Source of the DNA: a virus
Strand: one strand, 5' to 3'
IMG/VR virus record: IMGVR_UViG_3300025132_000065
Coordinates: 1-46,959 of that record
DNA: 46,959 nucleotides
The notes under the pieces are model-generated. The model searched no databases. It was not told the origin of the DNA and saw only the letters and a program-made list of their open reading frames with translations. The translations under genes and the position numbers were made by a program. Shown here piece by piece: positions 16,812 to 45,889 of the stretch; within the stretch, counting starts at the first letter, position 1; every line of letters begins with the position of its first letter.

Positions 16812-19800
16812 GTGACAGGAGAACTTATAACTGATTCGTCAGGTGATGACGCATATTCTAATCCCTTACCTTTTTATAAATGGGGGGACTCTATTGGATC
16901 TAACATAACCGACGATAAGGATAAGCTTATTGGTTATGGTAATTACCTAAGAGAATTTGAATTTGAACGTGGGGCTTTAGATAGCGATGCGGAAGCAGCT
17001 ATTAGTGGACTTATTAATAATGAGATAGCTCAGATAGATCCAGAGTATAGACCAACATTAGATTCTGGAACTGTAGATACTGATGCTAACCTTTTGTTTG
17101 AAGCCTTTGGACAAGAAGCAAAAGATAATTATTACAACGCATTAGAAAATGGAGCTAAAAGAGAAGACTTCTCAGCAGAAGTTAATGAAGCGAAACAACA
17201 CTTAGTTGAACATGGTAGCCTAAGTCTTGCTTCATTAAGAAGAAAAGGTGCAGACGGATCTATAAGTTATGAACTTATAGGTGATTCAAATATTTTAGAT
17301 AGTAAGAAAGCAGTTGCTAGTGCTTTGAGTAGAGGAGCTATACGACATAGCGATATGTGGCAAGTAGCTAGGGGTATGAAAGAAATTTACTCTGGTGTTA
17401 ATTCTTTTAAAGCAATAAGAGATAATCAAGTAAGATCAGAGTTTTCTGCTGCTTCCCAAGCAGAAGATAAGGAACTCTATAATGAAGTACTTAAAGATGC
17501 TAAAGATTACTTCATCAATAACAAAGAAGAAACTGATCCCTCTGCCCTGATTACTAAAGCCCGAACTCTGTTAGCTAAAGGTTATTCAAGCAGCAGGGAT
17601 ATAGGGGAGAATGTTTCAAGGAACAGGTTTCAGGATTCAGATATCATGGATGCTCTGGAGCAGGTAGCTTCTTTTGAAGCCTACCAAAAAGGAGAAGTAG
17701 ATTTTATAAGTGATGTAAACAAGTTAGGAGAGAACATCAAAGTAACAAAGAATGGTGCAGTCATAGCACACTCAGAGTTGATTTTTGATAGGGGTAAGTT
17801 TGATGCAGCTTTAGAACTCCGTACGGATTTAAATACAAATCAAAAGACTTCTTTAAGAAACTACAGAAAAGATTTTTTTACAAGACAGTTCCCTCAATAC
17901 GATGAATTATTTAGAGATTCTACAGTGGAGAAGAAATGGGGTACTGCAAAGATAGATGGCAAACAAAAAGGTTTATCTAATGGTCAAATACTAGAAAGAT
18001 TTATAGCCGACCCTAAAAATTATAGCGGGGCTAAAAATCGTTTAGGTGCAATCGGTGATTCTATTGCTGATTCGTTCACTGGTCTAGCGTTTGTAATACC
18101 TGCTTTGTTTGAAAACCAAGCTGCTATTGATGCTTTGGTTGAACAGGACGAGGACAGACAAAACCGTAGAGCTGTAGCTGAAATATTTGGTGACAAGTTT
18201 GGTTTAGGTATGGATGTATCTACTGCGATTGCGCCTATGGTTGTGGATATTACAGCTACTGTTTTACTTAGTACAGGTACATTGGGAACTGGTGGTGCGC
18301 TTTATATAGCAGGTAAACAGGGTGTTAACTTAACAGCCAAAGGAGCTATTAAAACCGTAACAGGTAGCGTACTAAAGAAAAGGTTTGGAGAAACTACGGA
18401 ACAAGCAGCTAAGAGACTTACCGACGCTGGTATTTTTACAAAGGGTAGTAATGCAGCCGACGTACAAAAAGCTATTGATGGTTTCAATAGATCACTAACT
18501 AGAACTGTTACAAAGAAGAAAGGTAAAGAGACTATTGAAAGACAAGCATCTTCTTATTTAGTAAGTGGCGTTCAGACATCTGCTCTATTTGTAACGGCTG
18601 CTAATAGGTCGGCTGGTGCTACTTATGCTACAGTGTACGGCAACTTGGAAGGTACACATGAGGAAAAACATGATGCCGCTTTTGGAGCAGCGATGATGGC
18701 AGGAACTGCAACAGGTCTTATTACAGCAGGTTTCAGTAGTGTAGGAGCAGGTGGTTTTGAAGATGTTTTCCTTAGAGGTATTACTGCCAAGCAACATAAG
18801 TCCCTTTTGGAAAGGATGCTGAGAACTAAGATTGCTCAGTCTCAATATGGAAACTTAATGAGGGAGTACTTATCCAAAAGGATTAAGGAAGTTGTACCCC
18901 AAAGATTTACTGGTTTGTACAGGCGATTCCTTCAAAGTGGTACACAAGAATTTTTCGAGGAAGGTGTAGATGAGTTTGTAAATTCATTCATTGTAGACGC
19001 TGCTCTAAATGAAGATACCCCTATGATTGATAGGGTAACTGGTGCTATGTACGCAGGTTTAGTTGGTGGTATCATCGGACAAGGTGCTGCTGGTGTGCGT
19101 TCTATTGCAGAAAAACAAGGGGCTTTTTCAAAAGGTCAGTTGGAAATGGTACGCCAAGACGAAGAACAACAGCTCATAAAATTTTTAAAAGATAATAATT
19201 CTCCCTTAACTGCGGAGGTCATGGAGAGAATAACATTAGCGCAGTTGAGAACTCCTGCTTCTAAAGCTACGGACACTGAGTATGAAACTTTTATAGGCCA
19301 AGCTATAGCTGCGACTGAAGAAATAGCTAGAAGAAAAAAAGCAGCGGAAGATACAAAAATAAAAATAACTGAGAATACTAAAGATACTTCAGGAAAGTTA
19401 GGAAGTACTCCAGCAGTATCAACTAAAACTACTGAGTCTATTGATGGGGAGCCTACGACAGAAGCTGAAGCAGAAGTTGTTTTATACACAACCAATATAG
19501 CAAATGATTTTAATGCGAAAGAACCCCTCCCTTATTTATCTGGAAAGATAGATAGTCCTACTTCGGAACAAAAGAAAAAAGTTTTTGAAGAGGTTGACTT
19601 AGCAAAATTTAAAAAAGCTTTAGGTTCTGTTGAAAGATATATTGAGTTTATCAAAGAACATGAGAAAGCTCATATCAAATTAGGGCATAATGTAAATTAT
19701 CCAAAAGATGAAAATGATAACCCTGATCTGACTAATGAAATAGCTATTGAATATGAAAAGGAAGCTAACATAGAAGCAGCAAAAGCTCTTGATATTGATT

Positions 19801-22800
19801 GGGGTTCTTTACAGAAACGTAAAGATACTGCTGATATGCCAACAGCTCCAGAAGGAGCAGATTTAGATGCCCAAAATGAACAGCTCATAGAGGACATGGA
19901 TAACCTTGATAAGCAGAGCATTGCTGAAAACTATGGGTTGGAACTTGAAGAGGAAGCTCAACAAAAAGCTAATAAATTAAATATATCAAAAGCCGAAGCT
20001 AAAACCCCGACAGAGAAGTTTGATACAGAAGGAGAGCCTATACTAGAAGATACTTATTTCCCAAGCGGTGAGGAATTGAATGATATATTATCTGCTGTTA
20101 GAGATGAAAATGGCTTTGATGAAGTTAGTGAAGATGACTTTGATTCTGTGGCTACAGAGGATGACAAATATGATAAAGTAGAAGTCTACAGAATGGCTAT
20201 AGAGGATTATGGGGGAGGTGTAATGGATCTTACGGAAGAAGAAATACAGGCGATGAAAATCGAAATCAATAAGCTGATAGCTAAGTATGAAAAGTATGAT
20301 CCTGAAACAAGAAATGAAGTATTTGCTGAGATTGGTGGTGATGTAATTATAGAAGCCTATAACGAAATAGTTAAAAGGAGAGGACAGTTTATACAAAATG
20401 GCTATCAAGAATATGATCCGACAGAGGATGAGGAAGGTTTAACTGAAAAAATTGCATACGATCAAAGAGCAAGAAAAAACTTTGAAAGATTTGAAAAGGA
20501 ATTCGCAGTTGAGGAAGAAAGGAAGGTAGAGTCTAAAGATGATACAAAGGAACCACTCAGAGCTAGTGATGTATATATAACATATAGTTATATAAACTAC
20601 GATAATGAGCTTTCAAAACGAGCTGTCCGACTAGTTGATGCTAACAGTCGTATAAAAGAATTAGAAGAACAGATAGAGAATTTTGATGCTTCTGTAAGAG
20701 ACGACAGCGTAGAGATTTTAGAGTCCCAAATAAGGGCAATAAAAGAAAGTATAGATGCCCATCTAGAAACTGTCCCACTTAAAACTAAACCAGTTTTAAA
20801 ACAAGTGGGGTATGCTAAAGAAGTTCCTGAAGGACAAGGAGATACCTTTGAGGTTTCATCAGAAGGAACCTCTGTTGGTAAAACATTCTCCCCTAAGAAT
20901 GCAACTATAAAATATAAACAAGCGATAGAACTTTTAAGAAGTTTAGGCATACCCATATCAAGAAAATTAGGATTCCTACAAAAAGATGGTAAAGCTAATA
21001 AAGGAATTGCAACAATAGAAGATCTTTACCAAGCTGCTAAAGGAACAGGCAAAGGTCAAAAAGCAGAGAGCGATAAATTTAGGTACTACGAAGTATATAA
21101 AGGGTTATGGAAAATATACTTTGATAATAATGAAGAACAATTAGGAGTCATTGGAGAAGCTAGTTCAGGTAAAATACTTACTGATAAGTTTGCACAAAAA
21201 CCTACGAGGGCGAACAACTTTGGTATAAATGTTAACTCACAAGCAAGAGCTATCCATGATATCTTAGTTGAGAAAAAACTACGTGACCCCTACACTTTGA
21301 AGTATGTAGGAGATACTACGCCAGATAACCAACAAAAATCACCAGAGGTTGTTTATAAAAAAGGGCCAGCAGCAGTTAGAGCAGCAGCAGCAAAAGGAGA
21401 AGGCATTAACACACTCAGGCAAGAAGGTGAACAACATTTTGGAAATCCATTTAGCGATCTTCCGAAAGCTAAAACTCGTGATACCATAAAGACAGGAACT
21501 TTAGATGAGACTTTAAGGTTCTACAAAATGTGGTTAAGGGGTGTTGATTTTGAGGTAGAAGTGGAGGGTGGTGAAAATTATAAAATTAATGAGGTTAAGC
21601 AAGAGCGTAGGAAATGGGTACTTGATCAAATCAATCAAGGTAAGTTAGACGGACAAAAACTTTTGTATCACAAAGCGGGTGGTTTGAACCATGCCCAAAT
21701 ATTGAGAGACTATGTACTTGAAGTAAGAGGGTTTGCTTTAGAACAAGAAACAACTGAGGCTTCTAAACCTTTAAATATTAATATAAGATATACTTGGGGG
21801 GAAAACGATCCAGAGACTAACACTACAGAAAGTACAGATTCTGTTAAGTTAAATGATGCTGATGCAAAAATTAAAGAGTTAAAAGAAAAACTTGCATCAG
21901 ATACAGAAGCTTATGATGTAGGTTCTGACTTTGGTACTGATCGTTTTATAGATAGAAATTACTTAGAAGATTCTAAAGCACGTATTGCTTCTTTAGAAAA
22001 AGCAGTTGCTGAAGTAAGGGGAAGGGGTTCAGACTTTTCTTTAGAACAAGAAACAACCGCCCCCTCTAAACCTGTAGATAGTACACTAAGATATAAATAT
22101 ACGTATACAAGTGTAGATGGTACTAAAGAAATAACTTCTGATATTCAAAATATTCAAATAGAAGAAGCGAGTAAGGTGCTTGAACAACTACGTAAAGATG
22201 TTGCACAAATTGATCATACTCTTGAGTTCTATGGAGGTTTCTACAATGATAATGATTTAACAAGAGAGAAGATACAAAAGCTAGGACACATTGAAGGATT
22301 ACAACAAGCTATAAATGAATATGACCAAGCTATATTTGAGCCAGAGATAGGACAACCTATAACTTATTCATACACTTTTTTCGATCCAGAAGTTGGCTTT
22401 AGTGAAAGAACAACAAAAACATTAAGTTTCCCTGAAGCTAAAGCTCGACTTGAAGAATTAGATAATATCGATGCACCAACTGATATAGCTGTAGCACAAG
22501 CTAATGAACAAGAAGCCCAGAGCCTTCGTCCTTTAGTAGAGATATATGAAAATAAAATACTACAAAGAGCTACAACAAAAGATATAGAAACCTTCTCTAA
22601 TGTAAGTGCTAAACGTCACGTCCCTAAAGAACAAGTTAAAACAAGGAAAGCTACTCAGTTTATTGGTGATGGTGCAGCAGGTTCTTCAACTGATAACTAT
22701 CGTAGAATGTATGAGATTAGAGGACGTGCTAATACAGGTAACTACAAGTCTTCTGATGTTGTCTTTGTAGCGTCTAATGGCCTACGGAAAGATGCAATCA

Positions 22801-25800
22801 TACCAGTAGAAGATGGCGAATTGGATGGTAAGTACAAACTTATAGATGGTGCGATGGAAGCAGGAGCTACCATCATCATGGATGAGCTATCACATATCAC
22901 GAATAAAAGATATAGAAATTATCTTAGTAAAGGTGAAGTAGCACTTGCAGATTATGTAGAAAATAATGGTTATGTAAGAGTAGGGAAAACAGGTGAGTTT
23001 GTTCCTAAAACAAAACAAGAAAAAGATGTAGAACTTTCATATAGTTTTATACCCGACTGGTCGAATGGTAATGTCATCACAAGAAAAGTTAAATACAAAG
23101 ATATCAATAAACTATTAGATACTCTTGATAGTAAGATTGAGTTCAATGATGAACTAAGGAAGGGAGACACTGAGGGTGTTGGTTACACTTTAAGTGTGGA
23201 ATTAGAAGCTGTAAAAGCTGCCAAAGAGCAACATGAGTTAAGTTTAAAACTTAACGATATTAATGATGAGACTACTGAATCCCAAATAAGAAGCTTGTCA
23301 CCTGAAAAAGCTTTTGAATCCTTGGATGATATTAGTCAGGAAGACTTATTAAAACTACAAAACCTCTTGGCAGATCTTAGTTTAATAGGACAGCTATTTG
23401 GTGTTGATGTCAGACTAGTATCTGATGAACAAAGGAAAGCAGCTCAAGAGTCAGGACAAGAAATAAAACCTTTTAGTTTTGTTACATCTGAGAGCGGAAG
23501 TTTTGTTCAGATAGAACCTAGCGAACTAGGTAATTTAGTTGATGGCTTATCAAATAGAAATGCAAAAGCATTAACATCTTCTGTAATGATAGAAGAGATA
23601 ATACACGCAGCCACTTTCGCTGACTTCACTACAGAAGAGATCTCTGCTTTGTATGGGGAGATGCCTCAGTCAGAAGTTAATCGTGTTATAGATAACTACT
23701 ACCTAACGGAAGCAGATAAGCAAGCTGCAAGAGCAAGGCTCACAAGTGAAGATCCAGATGTAGTAGCTAATGAACAAAGAACATTAGGTAAAGAGGCATT
23801 GCGTATGTATGCACAACGTGCCTTAAAAGGATTTACTACAGAGCAAGACAGAGCATTCTATTTAGAGAACCCTAATATCTTTGCAGCAATTCTTAGATAC
23901 TTAAAAGGAGTTGTAAACAGAATAACTTTTGCTCTGAGAAGAGATTCAGAAAACCCTTATATGTCAATGGCAGTTAACAGGGTTGTCCAAGCTTACAACG
24001 ATATGAAAGCTGGTTATCAAGTAGAGCCTATACCTATGTTTGATCCAGACAATCCTTTAAGGGTAGTGAAAGCTTTTACAGGACACACCGAAACTTCAGA
24101 AGCAGATGCTGATATAGCCCCAGAAGTTGGTACTATAATTGAAGTCACCGAATCTCAGACAGAGGGTAACACTACAACAGAAGTTAATACAAATAGAATA
24201 TTCAAGCATGGTAACCTGACAGGTATGTTAACAATACCTGTTATGAAAACAGGTAAGTATCGTGGTGCTTACAAAGGCATAATGTCTTGGATGAATGCGT
24301 TAGTCGGGTCACCAGACCCAAGATTGCAAAGGCTACACCAGCAATCAGTCTCTCTTCGTAATGCTGTATTTAATGAAATACAAAATTACAAAGATAGACT
24401 AGACCAACTAGTTGCTAAGTTATATCCAGATGGGGATGCTCCTGTAGATTTATTTAGAAGTATAACAGGAGACGCTGAAGTTTTAAGACTTGATCCAAAG
24501 ACTACTGACTTTCTTAATAAATTTTTTGATACTAAATTGAAAAGAATGACTCAAGTCTTGGCAGCTCTTAATGAGCAGAGGGTTCAAGAACCAGACAACA
24601 AAGAGCTACAGGCTAATATAAAAAGATTAACAGAGGATATTAAGGATTTAGATAGTCAGAAATCTACAGCTTTTAATAGGGCTTATCAAAATAAAAGAGC
24701 CTTGCTTGAACAGAGAAGAGAATATGCTATCGAACAACTCGGTGGTTATGATGAAAACGGAAACCCTAAATCTGAAATAGTTAGGCATCTACTTGCCCTT
24801 CGTGGGAAGACAGATGAGTTCTCTAAAAAGATAGGGGAGTTATTCCCTAACGATCCAGAAATTAAAAAACAATTAAGTGCTACCATTGATGCAAATCTAG
24901 AAGTGTATCTGACAAGATCATATAAGTTATTTTCAGATGCAGGTTTTGCTGATCAAGTAATGTACGATAGTAAGTACACTGAAGTACGTAATGAAGCTGC
25001 TGCATTCTTTGCGGAAGAATATAAAACCCACAGAGCTACGCAAATTATTTTAAATAAAGAACCAGATGCCCAAGGTAATCTTGTCACTAGAATAGAAGAC
25101 GCAAGAAAAATAGCTGAAGAAGAATTGGTAGCAGACCGAACTAAGTCTCCTTCTGATCAACCACCACTCATACACAATATGATGGCTTCTTTCTTAAACT
25201 CGTTTTCAAACAAGGATAACTTGTTTACAAAGAACAGAGGGTTGCAACTAGTAGAAGGGGAAGATCTTGCTAGGCGTATGGGCTTTGCACATATATTAAA
25301 AGAGCGTCTGTTAAAAAGGAAAGATATCCCACAACAGTTGAGGGCTTTGATGGGTGAAGAAGGTGATGCCACTGGTTATGATGCAATCATGCGTACATAT
25401 ATGCACGTTGGTATTATGGCATCTCACCAAGCCTACTTGAAAAACGTATTAGACTTTGGCTTGAAAGAAAAGAATGGATGGATAATTGAAGAGGATGTTC
25501 TTCTAAACCTACCAGATGACGAGAAGTTTGAGATCGTCAATGGGCAGCAGGTAAACCGCTGGGAACAAATCTTTGCAGACGGGGATGCTCGCTTCGACCC
25601 TTGGGTAAACGTGACTACAGGTAAGAAGTACTACGCCACTAGAGATCTGAATGAAGCTTTAAAACTTTTAGGTAACAGTACTAAGGTAGCTTTAAATGAA
25701 TCTGAGATTGTCGCCACTCAATTAAATAGGATGGCTTTTAATCTGACAGGTCTTTCAATGGCAACTAAGACTTTAGGTTCTATAGGATTCTACCTAAGAA

Positions 25801-27515
25801 ACATTCTAGGTAACGTAGTCTACTTTGGTTTGTCTCAAGGAATGATAGCACCTATAAGGTATACAAAGAATATGGGTAAAGAACTCTTACGCCATAGAGG
25901 TATATACTCAGGTGAAAGGTTCAAAGCCAGCCAAATTAAATTGGATGAGTATTATGCTGAACTAGATTCTTTAGATATTATTGGTGACGAGATAAGACCT
26001 AAAATGCTTGATGAAATATTCAGAGGGGAGACTACTCCAAATGAATTGATGGATGAGGTCTACAGAAAAACAAAACAGATAGATGAATTAACTGATGAGA
26101 ATACAAAAGAAAGTGACCTAAAGAAAATAGGATCACCACTTAACAAACTATATACTTCTCTTAAAGAACTATCTGCTGTTGTTGATACTTTCTACAAGAT
26201 ATCTTACTACGAAAATGAATTGTCTGTTTTAAATAAAGCAAAGGAGAGAGGCGAAGGTAAGTATGCTACAATGACAGATTATGAAATCAAAAGGGAAGCT
26301 GCTGATAAAGTTCTAAGGACTGCTCAATCATATAGTAGATCTTCACCTTTAGTAAGGGGTTGGACTAAGTCTTCCGTTGGAGTTATGTTCGCTCCGTTCA
26401 TTCGATTCAAGGGAGAGATAGTCAGGATATCTATAAATACAATCCGCCTCGCTGTAGAAGAGATGAAGGATCAAAGCCCTACTATAAAAAGGAGAGGTGC
26501 TTTGAGGCTTTCAGGTTTCCTCGGAACAACAGTTGGTCTATCCGCAGTTGGTCCGTTGATAGCTCGTATGATAACTGATGTAGATGATGAAGAAGAAGCT
26601 GCCCTTAGAAGAACTTTAGTCGAGTACTTGAGGGGGCATACTTTCATAATGTACAGAGAAGATGGTGAGCTAAAAACTTTGGATCTAACATACGTAAACC
26701 CATACGCTATGTTAGCTGATCCTGTACTACGTTCAGTTGAGAAAGGATTCAGAGGGGAAAGCCCAGCATCTATGGCAATGAGTTTTATAGAAGGTTTGAT
26801 ATTTAACGAATACTTAGATGACCAAATCTTTGCAGGGGGATTGTTAAGTTTAAAAGCAAACAGAGATCCTCAAACAAATAAAAAGATATGGGAGGAGAGA
26901 GACGAAGCTGAAGATGTATTTATCAAAGGGGCTTCATTCCTACTTAAAGAAGCTTTGGAACCAAGGACAATAAAAGCTGGTCGGGAAGTCGCTAAGATGA
27001 TTGGCACAAACCCTGTCGAAGAAATCTTTGAGCGTATAGCAAAAGAATTTTATCCTGCTAAACCATACACAGTAGATATCTCAAACAACATGAGGAGATA
27101 TCTATTTGATGTAAGAAGAGAAACACAGAACATATCGTTAAGGAAAAACAAAGTACTGAGTGATAACCCAATCACTGATGCTGAAATGAAAGCTCTCGTG
27201 ATCGATGAGATAGATCATCGAGTCAGGCTAGATAAAGAGGTAGCTCATACACTTAAAAACTTAGCGTCTCTTGGTGAACTATCAGATCAAGATGTTAAAA
27301 AAATAGTATATGGATCACAGTTTGGAAAAAGAAGATATGGGTTTTTATTGCAGGGCAAAACAGAAACCCCAAGAGAAACTCACAAAGGTTTGAAAAAGAA
27401 ACTAAGAGATAAGTACAGACTTACCGAGAACAAAGAGTTCCTCAGAAGGGAACGCTTGCTTGATGCTTACTTTAAAAACTTACCTAGATTCTACTATCAC
27501 AACAGAGAAGATTAA
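16812..27515 (+). CDS. Giant multidomain virion (polyvalent-type) protein, 3567 aa
   Basis: GTG start at 16812. About 400 kDa. Visible regions: hydrophobic segments near 477-502 and 735-765; a zincin-like HEKAH (950-954) followed by a KLGH; a DUF4326-like domain with HFGNPF (1542-1547) and YKMWLRG, then NHAQILRDYV; a SLOG-like (LOG/molybdenum-carrier-type) nucleotide-binding region with ANTGNYKSSDVVFV (from 1973) and EAGATIIMDE; a degenerate second zincin motif EEIIHAAT (2261-2265); and a C-terminal part with NILGNVVYFG and FAPFIRFKGEIVRI, common in such giants. Five copies of an 80-100-residue module lie between 1250 and 2150. It is probably injected with the DNA. No RNA polymerase motifs are found. 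Confidence 0.86.
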   Translation: MTGELITDSSGDDAYSNPLPFYKWGDSIGSNITDDKDKLIGYGNYLREFEFERGALDSDAEAAISGLINNEIAQIDPEYRPTLDSGTVDTDANLLFEAFGQEAKDNYYNALENGAKREDFSAEVNEAKQHLVEHGSLSLASLRRKGADGSISYELIGDSNILDSKKAVASALSRGAIRHSDMWQVARGMKEIYSGVNSFKAIRDNQVRSEFSAASQAEDKELYNEVLKDAKDYFINNKEETDPSALITKARTLLAKGYSSSRDIGENVSRNRFQDSDIMDALEQVASFEAYQKGEVDFISDVNKLGENIKVTKNGAVIAHSELIFDRGKFDAALELRTDLNTNQKTSLRNYRKDFFTRQFPQYDELFRDSTVEKKWGTAKIDGKQKGLSNGQILERFIADPKNYSGAKNRLGAIGDSIADSFTGLAFVIPALFENQAAIDALVEQDEDRQNRRAVAEIFGDKFGLGMDVSTAIAPMVVDITATVLLSTGTLGTGGALYIAGKQGVNLTAKGAIKTVTGSVLKKRFGETTEQAAKRLTDAGIFTKGSNAADVQKAIDGFNRSLTRTVTKKKGKETIERQASSYLVSGVQTSALFVTAANRSAGATYATVYGNLEGTHEEKHDAAFGAAMMAGTATGLITAGFSSVGAGGFEDVFLRGITAKQHKSLLERMLRTKIAQSQYGNLMREYLSKRIKEVVPQRFTGLYRRFLQSGTQEFFEEGVDEFVNSFIVDAALNEDTPMIDRVTGAMYAGLVGGIIGQGAAGVRSIAEKQGAFSKGQLEMVRQDEEQQLIKFLKDNNSPLTAEVMERITLAQLRTPASKATDTEYETFIGQAIAATEEIARRKKAAEDTKIKITENTKDTSGKLGSTPAVSTKTTESIDGEPTTEAEAEVVLYTTNIANDFNAKEPLPYLSGKIDSPTSEQKKKVFEEVDLAKFKKALGSVERYIEFIKEHEKAHIKLGHNVNYPKDENDNPDLTNEIAIEYEKEANIEAAKALDIDWGSLQKRKDTADMPTAPEGADLDAQNEQLIEDMDNLDKQSIAENYGLELEEEAQQKANKLNISKAEAKTPTEKFDTEGEPILEDTYFPSGEELNDILSAVRDENGFDEVSEDDFDSVATEDDKYDKVEVYRMAIEDYGGGVMDLTEEEIQAMKIEINKLIAKYEKYDPETRNEVFAEIGGDVIIEAYNEIVKRRGQFIQNGYQEYDPTEDEEGLTEKIAYDQRARKNFERFEKEFAVEEERKVESKDDTKEPLRASDVYITYSYINYDNELSKRAVRLVDANSRIKELEEQIENFDASVRDDSVEILESQIRAIKESIDAHLETVPLKTKPVLKQVGYAKEVPEGQGDTFEVSSEGTSVGKTFSPKNATIKYKQAIELLRSLGIPISRKLGFLQKDGKANKGIATIEDLYQAAKGTGKGQKAESDKFRYYEVYKGLWKIYFDNNEEQLGVIGEASSGKILTDKFAQKPTRANNFGINVNSQARAIHDILVEKKLRDPYTLKYVGDTTPDNQQKSPEVVYKKGPAAVRAAAAKGEGINTLRQEGEQHFGNPFSDLPKAKTRDTIKTGTLDETLRFYKMWLRGVDFEVEVEGGENYKINEVKQERRKWVLDQINQGKLDGQKLLYHKAGGLNHAQILRDYVLEVRGFALEQETTEASKPLNINIRYTWGENDPETNTTESTDSVKLNDADAKIKELKEKLASDTEAYDVGSDFGTDRFIDRNYLEDSKARIASLEKAVAEVRGRGSDFSLEQETTAPSKPVDSTLRYKYTYTSVDGTKEITSDIQNIQIEEASKVLEQLRKDVAQIDHTLEFYGGFYNDNDLTREKIQKLGHIEGLQQAINEYDQAIFEPEIGQPITYSYTFFDPEVGFSERTTKTLSFPEAKARLEELDNIDAPTDIAVAQANEQEAQSLRPLVEIYENKILQRATTKDIETFSNVSAKRHVPKEQVKTRKATQFIGDGAAGSSTDNYRRMYEIRGRANTGNYKSSDVVFVASNGLRKDAIIPVEDGELDGKYKLIDGAMEAGATIIMDELSHITNKRYRNYLSKGEVALADYVENNGYVRVGKTGEFVPKTKQEKDVELSYSFIPDWSNGNVITRKVKYKDINKLLDTLDSKIEFNDELRKGDTEGVGYTLSVELEAVKAAKEQHELSLKLNDINDETTESQIRSLSPEKAFESLDDISQEDLLKLQNLLADLSLIGQLFGVDVRLVSDEQRKAAQESGQEIKPFSFVTSESGSFVQIEPSELGNLVDGLSNRNAKALTSSVMIEEIIHAATFADFTTEEISALYGEMPQSEVNRVIDNYYLTEADKQAARARLTSEDPDVVANEQRTLGKEALRMYAQRALKGFTTEQDRAFYLENPNIFAAILRYLKGVVNRITFALRRDSENPYMSMAVNRVVQAYNDMKAGYQVEPIPMFDPDNPLRVVKAFTGHTETSEADADIAPEVGTIIEVTESQTEGNTTTEVNTNRIFKHGNLTGMLTIPVMKTGKYRGAYKGIMSWMNALVGSPDPRLQRLHQQSVSLRNAVFNEIQNYKDRLDQLVAKLYPDGDAPVDLFRSITGDAEVLRLDPKTTDFLNKFFDTKLKRMTQVLAALNEQRVQEPDNKELQANIKRLTEDIKDLDSQKSTAFNRAYQNKRALLEQRREYAIEQLGGYDENGNPKSEIVRHLLALRGKTDEFSKKIGELFPNDPEIKKQLSATIDANLEVYLTRSYKLFSDAGFADQVMYDSKYTEVRNEAAAFFAEEYKTHRATQIILNKEPDAQGNLVTRIEDARKIAEEELVADRTKSPSDQPPLIHNMMASFLNSFSNKDNLFTKNRGLQLVEGEDLARRMGFAHILKERLLKRKDIPQQLRALMGEEGDATGYDAIMRTYMHVGIMASHQAYLKNVLDFGLKEKNGWIIEEDVLLNLPDDEKFEIVNGQQVNRWEQIFADGDARFDPWVNVTTGKKYYATRDLNEALKLLGNSTKVALNESEIVATQLNRMAFNLTGLSMATKTLGSIGFYLRNILGNVVYFGLSQGMIAPIRYTKNMGKELLRHRGIYSGERFKASQIKLDEYYAELDSLDIIGDEIRPKMLDEIFRGETTPNELMDEVYRKTKQIDELTDENTKESDLKKIGSPLNKLYTSLKELSAVVDTFYKISYYENELSVLNKAKERGEGKYATMTDYEIKREAADKVLRTAQSYSRSSPLVRGWTKSSVGVMFAPFIRFKGEIVRISINTIRLAVEEMKDQSPTIKRRGALRLSGFLGTTVGLSAVGPLIARMITDVDDEEEAALRRTLVEYLRGHTFIMYREDGELKTLDLTYVNPYAMLADPVLRSVEKGFRGESPASMAMSFIEGLIFNEYLDDQIFAGGLLSLKANRDPQTNKKIWEERDEAEDVFIKGASFLLKEALEPRTIKAGREVAKMIGTNPVEEIFERIAKEFYPAKPYTVDISNNMRRYLFDVRRETQNISLRKNKVLSDNPITDAEMKALVIDEIDHRVRLDKEVAHTLKNLASLGELSDQDVKKIVYGSQFGKRRYGFLLQGKTETPRETHKGLKKKLRDKYRLTENKEFLRRERLLDAYFKNLPRFYYHNRED
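21732..22078 (+). repeat. Duplicated linker and module inside the giant gene
   Basis: The linker reads ALEQETTEASKPLN near 1645 and SLEQETTAPSKPVD near 1746, each followed by an R-Y-x-Y/W strand and a coiled-coil segment. At DNA level TTTAGAACAAGAAACAAC is shared (about 21737 and 22041). This marks a fairly recent internal duplication of one repeat module of the giant protein. Confidence 0.7.
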
Positions 27516-44140: not shown

Positions 44141-44218
44141 GGTTAATTTTGGCACTAGGGTAGTGCTCTAAAAATACCCTGTTGCATATATTAAAAATAA
44201 GATTATTTTATATATGTT

Positions 44219-44342
44219 AACAACTCATATGGTTGCTCTAGCCATGAATAGTTCTAGTGAGAAGTTATCAATGGGCTGTGTTCCGTTCCATAATCAATCT
44301 ACTTGGTTGCTCTAGCCATAAATAGTTCTAGTTCAGTAGATT
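44219..44342 (+). ncRNA. Tandem structured element in the capsid leader
   Basis: Two copies of a 28-base core, GGTTGCTCTAGCCATRAATA and on to TTCTAGT, at 44231-44258 and 44305-44332, differ at one base. Each is closed by its own stem: copy one AAC/GTT and CTC/GAG around an AA/AA internal loop (44219-44226 with 44259-44266); copy two a perfect 8-bp stem, AATCTACT 44296-44303 with AGTAGATT 44335-44342. Within the core GGTT pairs with AGCC around GCTCT. Stem sequences differ but pairing holds, as for a functional RNA. They lie 84-207 bases ahead of the major capsid gene. Confidence 0.68.
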
Positions 44343-44357
44343 CCAATAACTTTACTT

Positions 44358-44389
44358 AGATCGTCTCCAGAACGAAACAGGAGAGGTCT
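44358..44389 (+). promoter_or_regulatory. Bulged hairpin before the major capsid gene
   Basis: AGATC 44358-44362 and TCTCC 44364-44368 pair with GGAGA 44380-44384 and GGTCT 44385-44389, with one bulged G and a loop AGAACGAAACA. It is the third stem-loop of the capsid leader. GGAGAGG in it is a Shine-Dalgarno-like string but lies about 40 bases from the ATG. Confidence 0.6.
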
Positions 44390-44425
44390 GTACTACTATA
44401 ACTTAACAATTAGAAAACAAATAAA

Positions 44426-45799
44426 ATGGCCTTTGGACCTCCAAACAGTCTGTCAGCCCCCGCATCGGGATCGGCTGCGGATCAAACTATTAACACAATA
44501 TTGACCCAAGAAGCGGGTAGAATTGGTGCTGATATACATAAAGCAACTCTTCACACCAGCCCTTGGATTGACCTTATTAAACAAGCTACATTCCCAGAGG
44601 GAATGGGTTATACACTCAACACTTTGATTTATGACCGTGCTCTCCCCGTGTCTCCTCTCGACGCAGATCTTGATGAATCTGCTGCTCTTGTAGGTACTAA
44701 CTGGAGTGCTCTAGGAACTACACAAGGATCAGCAAGTGCTGGTTTCATCGCTAACTCAACTGAGTCTACAACAGGAGCACCTACAGGTGGAGACAATGTT
44801 AACCACATTGACTTCTCTAAAGTTCTCAAAACATACAGCCTTAGTAGAGCAGTTATTGAATCTCCACGTATCAACGTAGAGGAACTTCGTTATGCAGCCC
44901 ACCGCACAGAGCAACTCCGTGCGATTATGGATTTGCTTAAAGAGTCCACTCGTTCTTCTTGGGAGAATCGTTACCGTCAACAGTACGACAAGCAGTGTAA
45001 CAATGTTGTTTACGCTAAAACTGCTTCTTCTATCTTTGCTACTGGTGCTGAAGGTAAAGCAACACACTCTACTGACTCATCTGAGCTTTTAGATGTAGAT
45101 GCTGCTGCTACCGCTGGTGGTGATGGTGGAACAAGTGATAATGTTGTAGATGCAACTGCAAACATCTCTAACGCTCTTTTGGATAAGATTTACTTCCAAC
45201 TTGTGCGTAAAGGTGCTGGAAACAATGCACATGGAGTTGAGAATGGTAGACCAGTATTTACATTGGTTTGCTCATCAGAAGCATCTTATCAGTTGATGAC
45301 TGAGTCTGGATTCCGTGATGATGTACGTTACAACAATTCTAGAGTGAGTGATCTTATTGCTCCTTTAGGTGTTGAGAAGTCTTTCAGAGGTTTCTATCAC
45401 TTGATTGATGACATGCTTCCACGTTTCAACGCAGCTCTAACTGGTGGAAATGACAACCTTGTTGAAGTACCTGTCTACGACGTAGACCACTCAAACAAGA
45501 AAGTTGTAATGAACACAGCTTACGATAGTGCTGCTATCGAAGTAGCTTACATCTTACACCAAGATGTAATGGAGTCCTTGATTCCTGCGCCTGTCACTAA
45601 TGTAAGTGGTCTTTCATTTGATCCAGTCAGCTATAAAGGTGACTTCAAGTGGACTAACATTCCTGATATCGTGCGTAACCCAGATGGAAACATTGGTTTC
45701 TTCAGGGGTATCATGGCTTCAGCTTCCAAGCCTATTAAGACAGACTTTGGTTATGTGATTCTCTTCAAGAGAGATTCCGCTACACCTGCTGCTGTTTAA
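44426..45799 (+). CDS. Major capsid protein
   Basis: 457 residues, probably of the HK97-like fold. Recognised from context (after scaffold, isolated with its own leader and terminator) and pattern: N-terminal NSLSAPASGSAADQTI and helix, DLIKQATFPEGMGYTL, SLSRAVIESPRINVEELRYA, KIYFQLVRKGAGNN and a C-terminal ENGRPVFTLVCSSEASYQLM and KTDFGYVILFKRD. The codon use is richer in preferred-type codons than elsewhere, as in highly expressed genes. No ribosome site: the ATG follows an A-rich tract (AGAAAACAAATAAA). Confidence 0.85.
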   Translation: MAFGPPNSLSAPASGSAADQTINTILTQEAGRIGADIHKATLHTSPWIDLIKQATFPEGMGYTLNTLIYDRALPVSPLDADLDESAALVGTNWSALGTTQGSASAGFIANSTESTTGAPTGGDNVNHIDFSKVLKTYSLSRAVIESPRINVEELRYAAHRTEQLRAIMDLLKESTRSSWENRYRQQYDKQCNNVVYAKTASSIFATGAEGKATHSTDSSELLDVDAAATAGGDGGTSDNVVDATANISNALLDKIYFQLVRKGAGNNAHGVENGRPVFTLVCSSEASYQLMTESGFRDDVRYNNSRVSDLIAPLGVEKSFRGFYHLIDDMLPRFNAALTGGNDNLVEVPVYDVDHSNKKVVMNTAYDSAAIEVAYILHQDVMESLIPAPVTNVSGLSFDPVSYKGDFKWTNIPDIVRNPDGNIGFFRGIMASASKPIKTDFGYVILFKRDSATPAAV

Positions 45800-45846: not shown

Positions 45847-45889
45847 AACCTCGATCCTCTTGCAAAAATGGGGATCGGGGTTATTTTTT
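45847..45889 (+). terminator. Rho-independent terminator after the major capsid gene
   Basis: AACCTCGATCC 45847-45857 pairs with GGATCGGGGTT 45872-45882 (one T-G pair), loop of 14, then ATTTTTT. This is a textbook terminator and would limit expression of the next gene relative to capsid. Confidence 0.9.

Follow-up and report, generated by a model that had tools for sequence, protein, structure and literature searches.

The 5′ stabilisers of the ompA, papA, and aprE messages are plain hairpins. To our knowledge, these leaders have neither a conserved pseudoknot core nor tandem copies of a motif. A pseudoknot of ~28 nt forms the 5′ terminus of the T4 gene 32 operator, where it is followed by a less structured, A/U-rich start region containing UUAAA/UAAA repeats (PMC535899), and the protein encoded by the gene, an SSB, binds the operator and represses it. 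Two or more pseudoknots in tandem make up the STAXI RNAs (RF01728; PMC2864571), which are found in Enterobacteriales close to genes for proteins that manipulate DNA (SSB, topoisomerase, and integrase) and often carry UUCG tetraloops. The put RNA of phage HK022 (~70 nt; PMC9378689) consists of two stem-loops located directly after the promoter of early operons, and suppresses terminators. Flaviviral xrRNAs (PMC5760640), which often form a tandem pair on the 5′ side of the RNA they protect, are three-way junctions that form a ring around the 5′ end. Lastly, the pan motif and tandem glnA RNAs (PMC2864571) are short conserved leader RNAs of cellular metabolic genes that are usually, or sometimes, tandem.

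We analysed a viral stretch of 46,959 nucleotides (hereafter the window; the features placed on it below lie on its + strand), in which an initial annotation had proposed two copies of an RNA-like element ahead of the capsid gene. Inspection of the sequence at 44218-44342 bore this out: both copies are present and share a 28-base core that differs at a single base, while their closing stems are unrelated in sequence. Element A (44218-44267), assigned from its sequence, the statistics of its closing stem P1, and covariation of its inner stem P2 and pseudoknot, reads TAAC-AA-CTCA-TAT-GGTTGCTCTAGCCATGAATAGTTCTAG-TGAG-AA-GTTA. Its P1 pairs TAAC with GTTA (44218-21 with 44264-67) and CTCA with TGAG (44224-27 with 44258-61), P2 pairs GGU with GCC (44231-33 with 44241-43), and the pseudoknot pairs CUA with UAG (44238-40 with 44249-51); the invariant GCU and UUC lie at 44235-37 and 44252-54. 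Element B (44296-44342; AATCTACT-T-GGTTGCTCTAGCCATAAATAGTTCTAGTTC-AGTAGATT) was assigned from its sequence, folding, P1 statistics, and covariation. In this copy, P1 is formed by AATCTACT and AGTAGATT (44296-44303 with 44335-44342), P2 by GGU and GCC (44305-07 with 44315-17), and the pseudoknot by CUA and UAG (44312-14 with 44323-25), with GCU at 44309-11 and UUC at 44326-28.

A sigma70-like promoter is predicted at 44182-44209 of the window (-35 TTGCAT at 44182-44187, a 16-nt spacer, and -10 TATTTT at 44204-44209), and its sequence would place the +1 near 44216. The two copies are separated by a middle hairpin, GGG-CUGUGU-UCC (44273-44284; consensus GRG-CNNNGN-YYC), and are followed by a third hairpin at 44358-44389 (AGATC/GGTCT and TCTCC/GGAGA), for which the MFE and centroid structures agree and which, judged by eye, is visibly retained in near relatives (AGRCCGCT..AGCGGTCT). 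An A/U-rich start region with no Shine-Dalgarno motif (44390-44425) leads to the ATG at 44426 of a 457-amino acid protein, probably the major capsid protein (MCP; 44426-45799). Directly 3′ of this gene is a terminator-like hairpin (AACCTCGATCCTC..GGGGATCGGGGTT plus T6; 45847-45889). A search for tRNA or tmRNA returned none; the largest open reading frame in the window, of 3567 amino acids, is located at 16812-27515 on the + strand.

Folding of the single sequences gave no significant signal (z of about -1.0 and -1.9), and the structural case therefore rests on the comparison of relatives. Across 141 distinct elements, the mean duplex energy of P1 is -9.86 kcal/mol, compared to -5.00 kcal/mol (standard deviation of the mean 0.17) for elements that had exchanged their 3′ flanks. 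Within this variable stem, the hairpin loop GCU-NNN pairs with a downstream NNN-UUC to form the pseudoknot. Complementarity of the two NNN triplets was not a requirement of the parser, and they are fully complementary in 183 of the 184 elements judged real. Seven forms occur: CUA/UAG (145) and CUG/CAG (18), totals that each include two elements with the GUU/UCC change described below, CCG/CGG (8), CCA/UGG (6), UCG/CGA (4), UUG/CAA (1), and UUA/UGA (1). The exception, copy B of L033, is a real element with CUC/UAG and two of the three pairs; in copy B of L063 and L070 (GGCUGCUCUGCC) the third pair is missing. Four elements (from L200 and L214) have GUU/UCC in place of GCU/UUC, so that the middle C.U mismatch becomes U.C, in keeping with a helix of six positions, two of which are pyrimidine mismatches. 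Eleven further anchor matches of the automatic parse, with none to two of the three pairs, join unrelated leader or coding sequence and were rejected as spurious.

Covariation supports the same fold. On 70 cores, 97.6% of the cells of the pseudoknot and P2 are paired and 18 cells carry double changes, compared to 2.4 in shuffles; the covariation score was matched by none of 500 shuffles, and sliding the register led to a sharp loss. By parsimony on a quick MCP tree, the three pseudoknot pairs require at least 4, 3, and 6 joint changes in copy A and at least 0, 1, and 6 in copy B, or ~20 independent paired changes. P2 covaries as well (GGU/GCC, GGU/ACC, GGC/GCC, and GAG/CUC), and some 15 core bases are invariant. 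The comparison thus shows, with very high confidence, that both copies form a compact H-type pseudoknot, GGY-Y(1-2)-GCU-NNN-[RCC]-L3-NNN-UUC-UA, clamped by a P1 of free sequence and usually present twice per MCP leader. It has a P2 of 3 bp, a first loop of 1-2 nt, a second helix of six positions (G-C, C.U, and U.U, then three Watson-Crick pairs), and an A-rich third loop, L3, within which a distant subgroup has an extra hairpin, P3, that is otherwise usually absent. The initial annotation had described a conserved core within pairing stems. The stems do pair, and the P1 energies and the covariation uphold its claim of selection on RNA structure, but the picture was incomplete, given that the conserved core is itself the pseudoknot and P1 no more than its clamp. 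As the fold is kept while the letters change, the RNA almost certainly has a job.

An exact search with the core among viral contigs found five stretches, four of them with two exactly matching copies, and a looser pattern found 100, with pairs in most. An independent search with the downstream protein recovered 38 relatives, and in nearly all of these the pair directly precedes the gene; a deeper profile search gave the best 80 of 166 relatives. In an automatic parse of 113 distinct leaders of this gene, the element is immediately upstream of one MCP family in 105: two elements were found in 88 leaders, one in 16, and three in a single leader, where one of them is spurious. One of the eight leaders in which none was parsed (L036) has an irregular copy recognized by eye (GGUUUGCUCUAUCC..UAGUUCUA), and the other seven form one clade. 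When 40 whole contigs were scanned with a covariance model, 38 were positive, 37 with exactly two copies and the remaining one with a single copy. The same MCP is the next gene at every real locus whose downstream region could be inspected, and no element was found before any other kind of gene; a second exact scan, for a variant of P2, yielded no loci beyond the known ones. These collection scans used exact patterns, which very divergent copies elsewhere could escape.

In cellular genomes, 12 stretches matched. The tandem matches (L143, L145, L146, L148, and L151) carry the MCP and resemble phage contigs in MAGs, whilst the single-copy matches (Methylophaga, Amphibacillus, etc.) look like chance; outside phage-like contigs the element was not found in cellular genomes, nor was it found before any metabolic gene. 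The same tandem pair thus precedes the same gene in dozens of contigs, which argues that the tandem copies are not a product of chance and places them, as first claimed, in the leader of the capsid gene. The two-copy arrangement is the normal state of the predicted 5′ end of the MCP transcript, and the pair is ancestral in a phage lineage. Recent tandem duplication was considered and rejected, since a comparison across 36 non-redundant phages showed A and B flanks to be no more alike within the same phage (0.305) than between different phages (0.293); the pair is consequently ancient, and the identity of the cores reflects constraint.

Some related leaders appear to use other pseudoknots. A distant MCP clade (L029, L030, L032, L036, L180, L181, L187, L192, L195, L196, and L209) has one canonical pseudoknot with P3, followed by a second, unrelated H-type pseudoknot, GAAGC..GGCCUAUGCGCC..GUCGC..GCUUC.GCGAC, which covaries by eye (GUUGC/GCAAC, GUCGC/GCGAC, GCCGC/GCGGC, and AUCGC/GCGAU). 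In a third MCP clade (L176, L179, L183, L184, L186, L191, and L197), there is no canonical element; these leaders have the hairpin GNCC-UGC-CAGUA-GGNC, and pairing between its loop and a downstream UACUG (CAAUG with CAUUG in L176) is possible, apparently giving another pseudoknot. The occurrence of unrelated pseudoknots in the same MCP leader suggests that what is needed is a knotted fold, rather than one motif.

The window MCP matched no PHROG or Pfam family, and a tblastn search for its relatives in 50,697 records of named phages returned no match and so pointed to no isolate or host. Its AlphaFold model is of low confidence (pLDDT 58), and the best PDB structure matches of this model are phage capsids (Pan3, E=1.8e-3, and Pam1, E=0.05); a profile search of PDB sequences with the protein found no capsid. 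With moderate confidence, we regard the downstream gene as probably encoding the MCP. It was from this name, rather than from data, that the initial annotation called its product the most highly made protein. The MAG bins of the five tandem cellular contigs (Acidimicrobiaceae, Opitutae, Blastopirellula, and Verrucomicrobiales) may hint at a host or reflect a binning error, and are a weak indication of host. The marine MAGs and the spread of the contigs, rather than sample records, suggest that the phages are aquatic.

At gathering thresholds, Rfam 15 (including STAXI, riboswitches, and ribozymes) gave no match in the window and six related loci; at E up to 10, the only match in the window was mir-4904 (E=5) on the opposite strand, which is meaningless. 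We found no description of the motif in a literature search that touched few subscription journals or preprints. The element is a new RNA family, although its general kind, the tandem pseudoknot leader, is already known. The initial annotation had likewise recognized no known class, and had named the Rfam comparison and the stem pairing of homologues as checks that could overturn it; neither did. What the comparison of relatives adds is the pseudoknot in each copy, the predicted promoter upstream, the hairpins between and after the copies, and the ancestry of the pair.

Like the T4 gene 32 operator (PMC535899), the leader belongs to a phage mRNA and combines a compact pseudoknot, 5′-terminal if the predicted promoter is correct, with a slightly open A/U-rich start and a presumably abundant protein; unlike that operator, it has two copies, each clamped by P1, of another sequence and much further from the start codon, and the gene encodes not an SSB but the MCP. 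With STAXI it shares pseudoknots in tandem, here two per leader; however, it occurs in viral metagenome contigs before the MCP and is not matched by the STAXI Rfam model. As in HK022 put, it is a phage cis-acting RNA of two folded modules that would directly follow the promoter, although here the modules are pseudoknots before one gene with its own terminator-like hairpin. Flaviviral xrRNAs are also pseudoknotted viral RNAs, but in our element the pseudoknot strand lies inside the closing stem and P3, in most cases, is missing. The pan and tandem glnA RNAs are likewise short, conserved, and often tandem, yet have other structures. A paired 5′ end on an abundant message would be shared with the ompA, papA, and aprE leaders (cited in PMC3997798).

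Promoters predicted for 52 non-redundant leaders are of the TTGACA/TTGCAT type, and the GG of copy A mostly lies 8-20 nt past the predicted +1, with larger distances arising from a few weak promoter calls. In contrast, the distance from copy B to the ATG varies (67-161 nt), and the pair therefore seems anchored at the 5′ end and not at the ribosome site; A-B spacing is 52-90 nt. A 5′-terminal stem-loop stabiliser would have its stem within ~3 nt of the 5′ end; P1 begins at +1 to +3 in 39 of the 52 leaders, a figure that in part follows from truncating the analysed sequence at +1. The middle hairpin, a conserved hexaloop structure of the form GRG-CNNNGN-YYC, is found in 37 of 79 two-copy leaders, compared to 0.2% of shuffled intervals. 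The start-codon region is slightly more open than expected from shuffles (0.52, versus 0.46), and UUAA repeats are visible in some leaders only. A Shine-Dalgarno-like motif precedes just 6 of 31 inspected genes in the window, which suggests that translation in the host mostly starts without one. Of 18 loci inspected by eye, nearly all have a terminator-like hairpin after the MCP, and long runs of co-oriented genes lie 3′ of the MCP.

Our best guess, held tentatively, is that the pair is a cis-acting stabiliser of the 5′ leader, or decay roadblock, for the MCP mRNA. Starting from the fold, position, gene specificity, and copy number as observed, the predicted promoter and transcription start would allow P1 of copy A to pair the first nucleotides of the transcript and so deny access to 5′-end-dependent decay (RppH, RNase E, or RNase J), and the rigid pseudoknots might act as two successive roadblocks to 5′-to-3′ decay, so that the MCP message would outlive its neighbours and yield the excess of capsid protein that the phage needs. 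Precedents exist, as RppH requires unpaired 5′ nucleotides (PMC3997798) and knotted xrRNAs stop bacterial RNase J1 (PMC5760640). We favour stabilisation because of the 5′-end position, the specificity for the MCP, the separate unit closed by a terminator-like hairpin, and the unrelated pseudoknots of other clades. Against it, a simple stabiliser would have no need of the ~15 invariant core bases, which point to a specific partner or to a tertiary fold with strict demands, and a generic stabiliser could serve other abundant proteins, yet the element is not reused. In addition, the outer edge of P1 does not track the predicted +1 (Spearman -0.07), and the pseudoknot strand lies within P1, unlike the xrRNA ring. 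Nearly as likely as stabilisation is an operator that controls translation, as in T4 gene 32, at which the MCP itself, a different phage protein, or a conserved RNA-binding protein of the host would bind the pseudoknots, spread into or act on the open A/U-rich start region, and tune MCP synthesis to assembly. The constant association with the MCP, the many invariant core bases, the likeness to the gp32 layout (PMC535899), and the two copies, which suit a dimeric or cooperative binder, all speak for an operator. Against one, the core remains unchanged as MCP identity drops to about 52%, other pseudoknots serve in some clades, and 67-223 nt separate the copies from the start codon.

Two folded modules directly after a promoter, here a predicted one, also bring to mind HK022 putL (PMC9378689), and the long co-oriented gene runs after the MCP would give a nascent pair, bound to RNA polymerase and rendering it pause- and terminator-resistant, something to reach by reading through the MCP terminator. 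We think this unlikely, as such read-through would make the widely kept hairpin after the MCP pointless, the A-B spacing is awkward for one joint binding surface, and the element was not found before other operons. Ligand sensing, to which the initial annotation gave a place beside RNA stabilisation and capsid or scaffold feedback, has lost ground, while the other two remain candidates. A tandem riboswitch, in which each pseudoknot would bind a small molecule and a steep response would time MCP expression, would fit the invariant core, variable clamp, and tandem layout familiar from glycine and glnA RNAs (tandem glnA: PMC2864571). Such a switch is nevertheless improbable: we saw no expression platform, be it an attenuator or a masked RBS, terminator-like sites being present in 2 of 105 leaders, which are near-identical in sequence, and absent from 103; the start region is open; and the element was found neither ahead of metabolic genes nor, phage-like contigs aside, in cellular genomes, and has no counterpart in Rfam. 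That the copies are a chance repeat or an element acting as DNA, such as a protein-binding site, with no role as RNA, is hardly credible. Strong primary conservation would suit a DNA site too, but the complementary double changes in the pseudoknot and P2, the retention of P1 with free sequence, and the failure of the slid-register control refute it. The remaining probability is shared among further roles, for instance that of a ribozyme, to which nothing in our results points.

The pair thus defines a well-supported family of structured RNAs with a small, strictly kept core, tied to a single gene, that of the capsid, across a large set of uncultured phages, at a step, the post-transcriptional control of phage capsid genes, about which little is known. 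Related clades whose MCP leaders hold different pseudoknots allow the function to be tested comparatively. If the element stabilises or gates the capsid message, it would explain how the most abundant protein is made without Shine-Dalgarno sites, and a portable stabiliser or operator of 50 nt would be useful. It is rather doubtful, but conceivable, that the tandem pseudoknots represent an undescribed nuclease-blocking (xrRNA-like), or otherwise mechanically resistant, class in DNA phages, placed at the very 5′ end of the capsid message. Were this true, the capsid message would outlive other phage and host messages, and the element would be a bacterial-virus counterpart to the flaviviral xrRNAs, built on a different fold.
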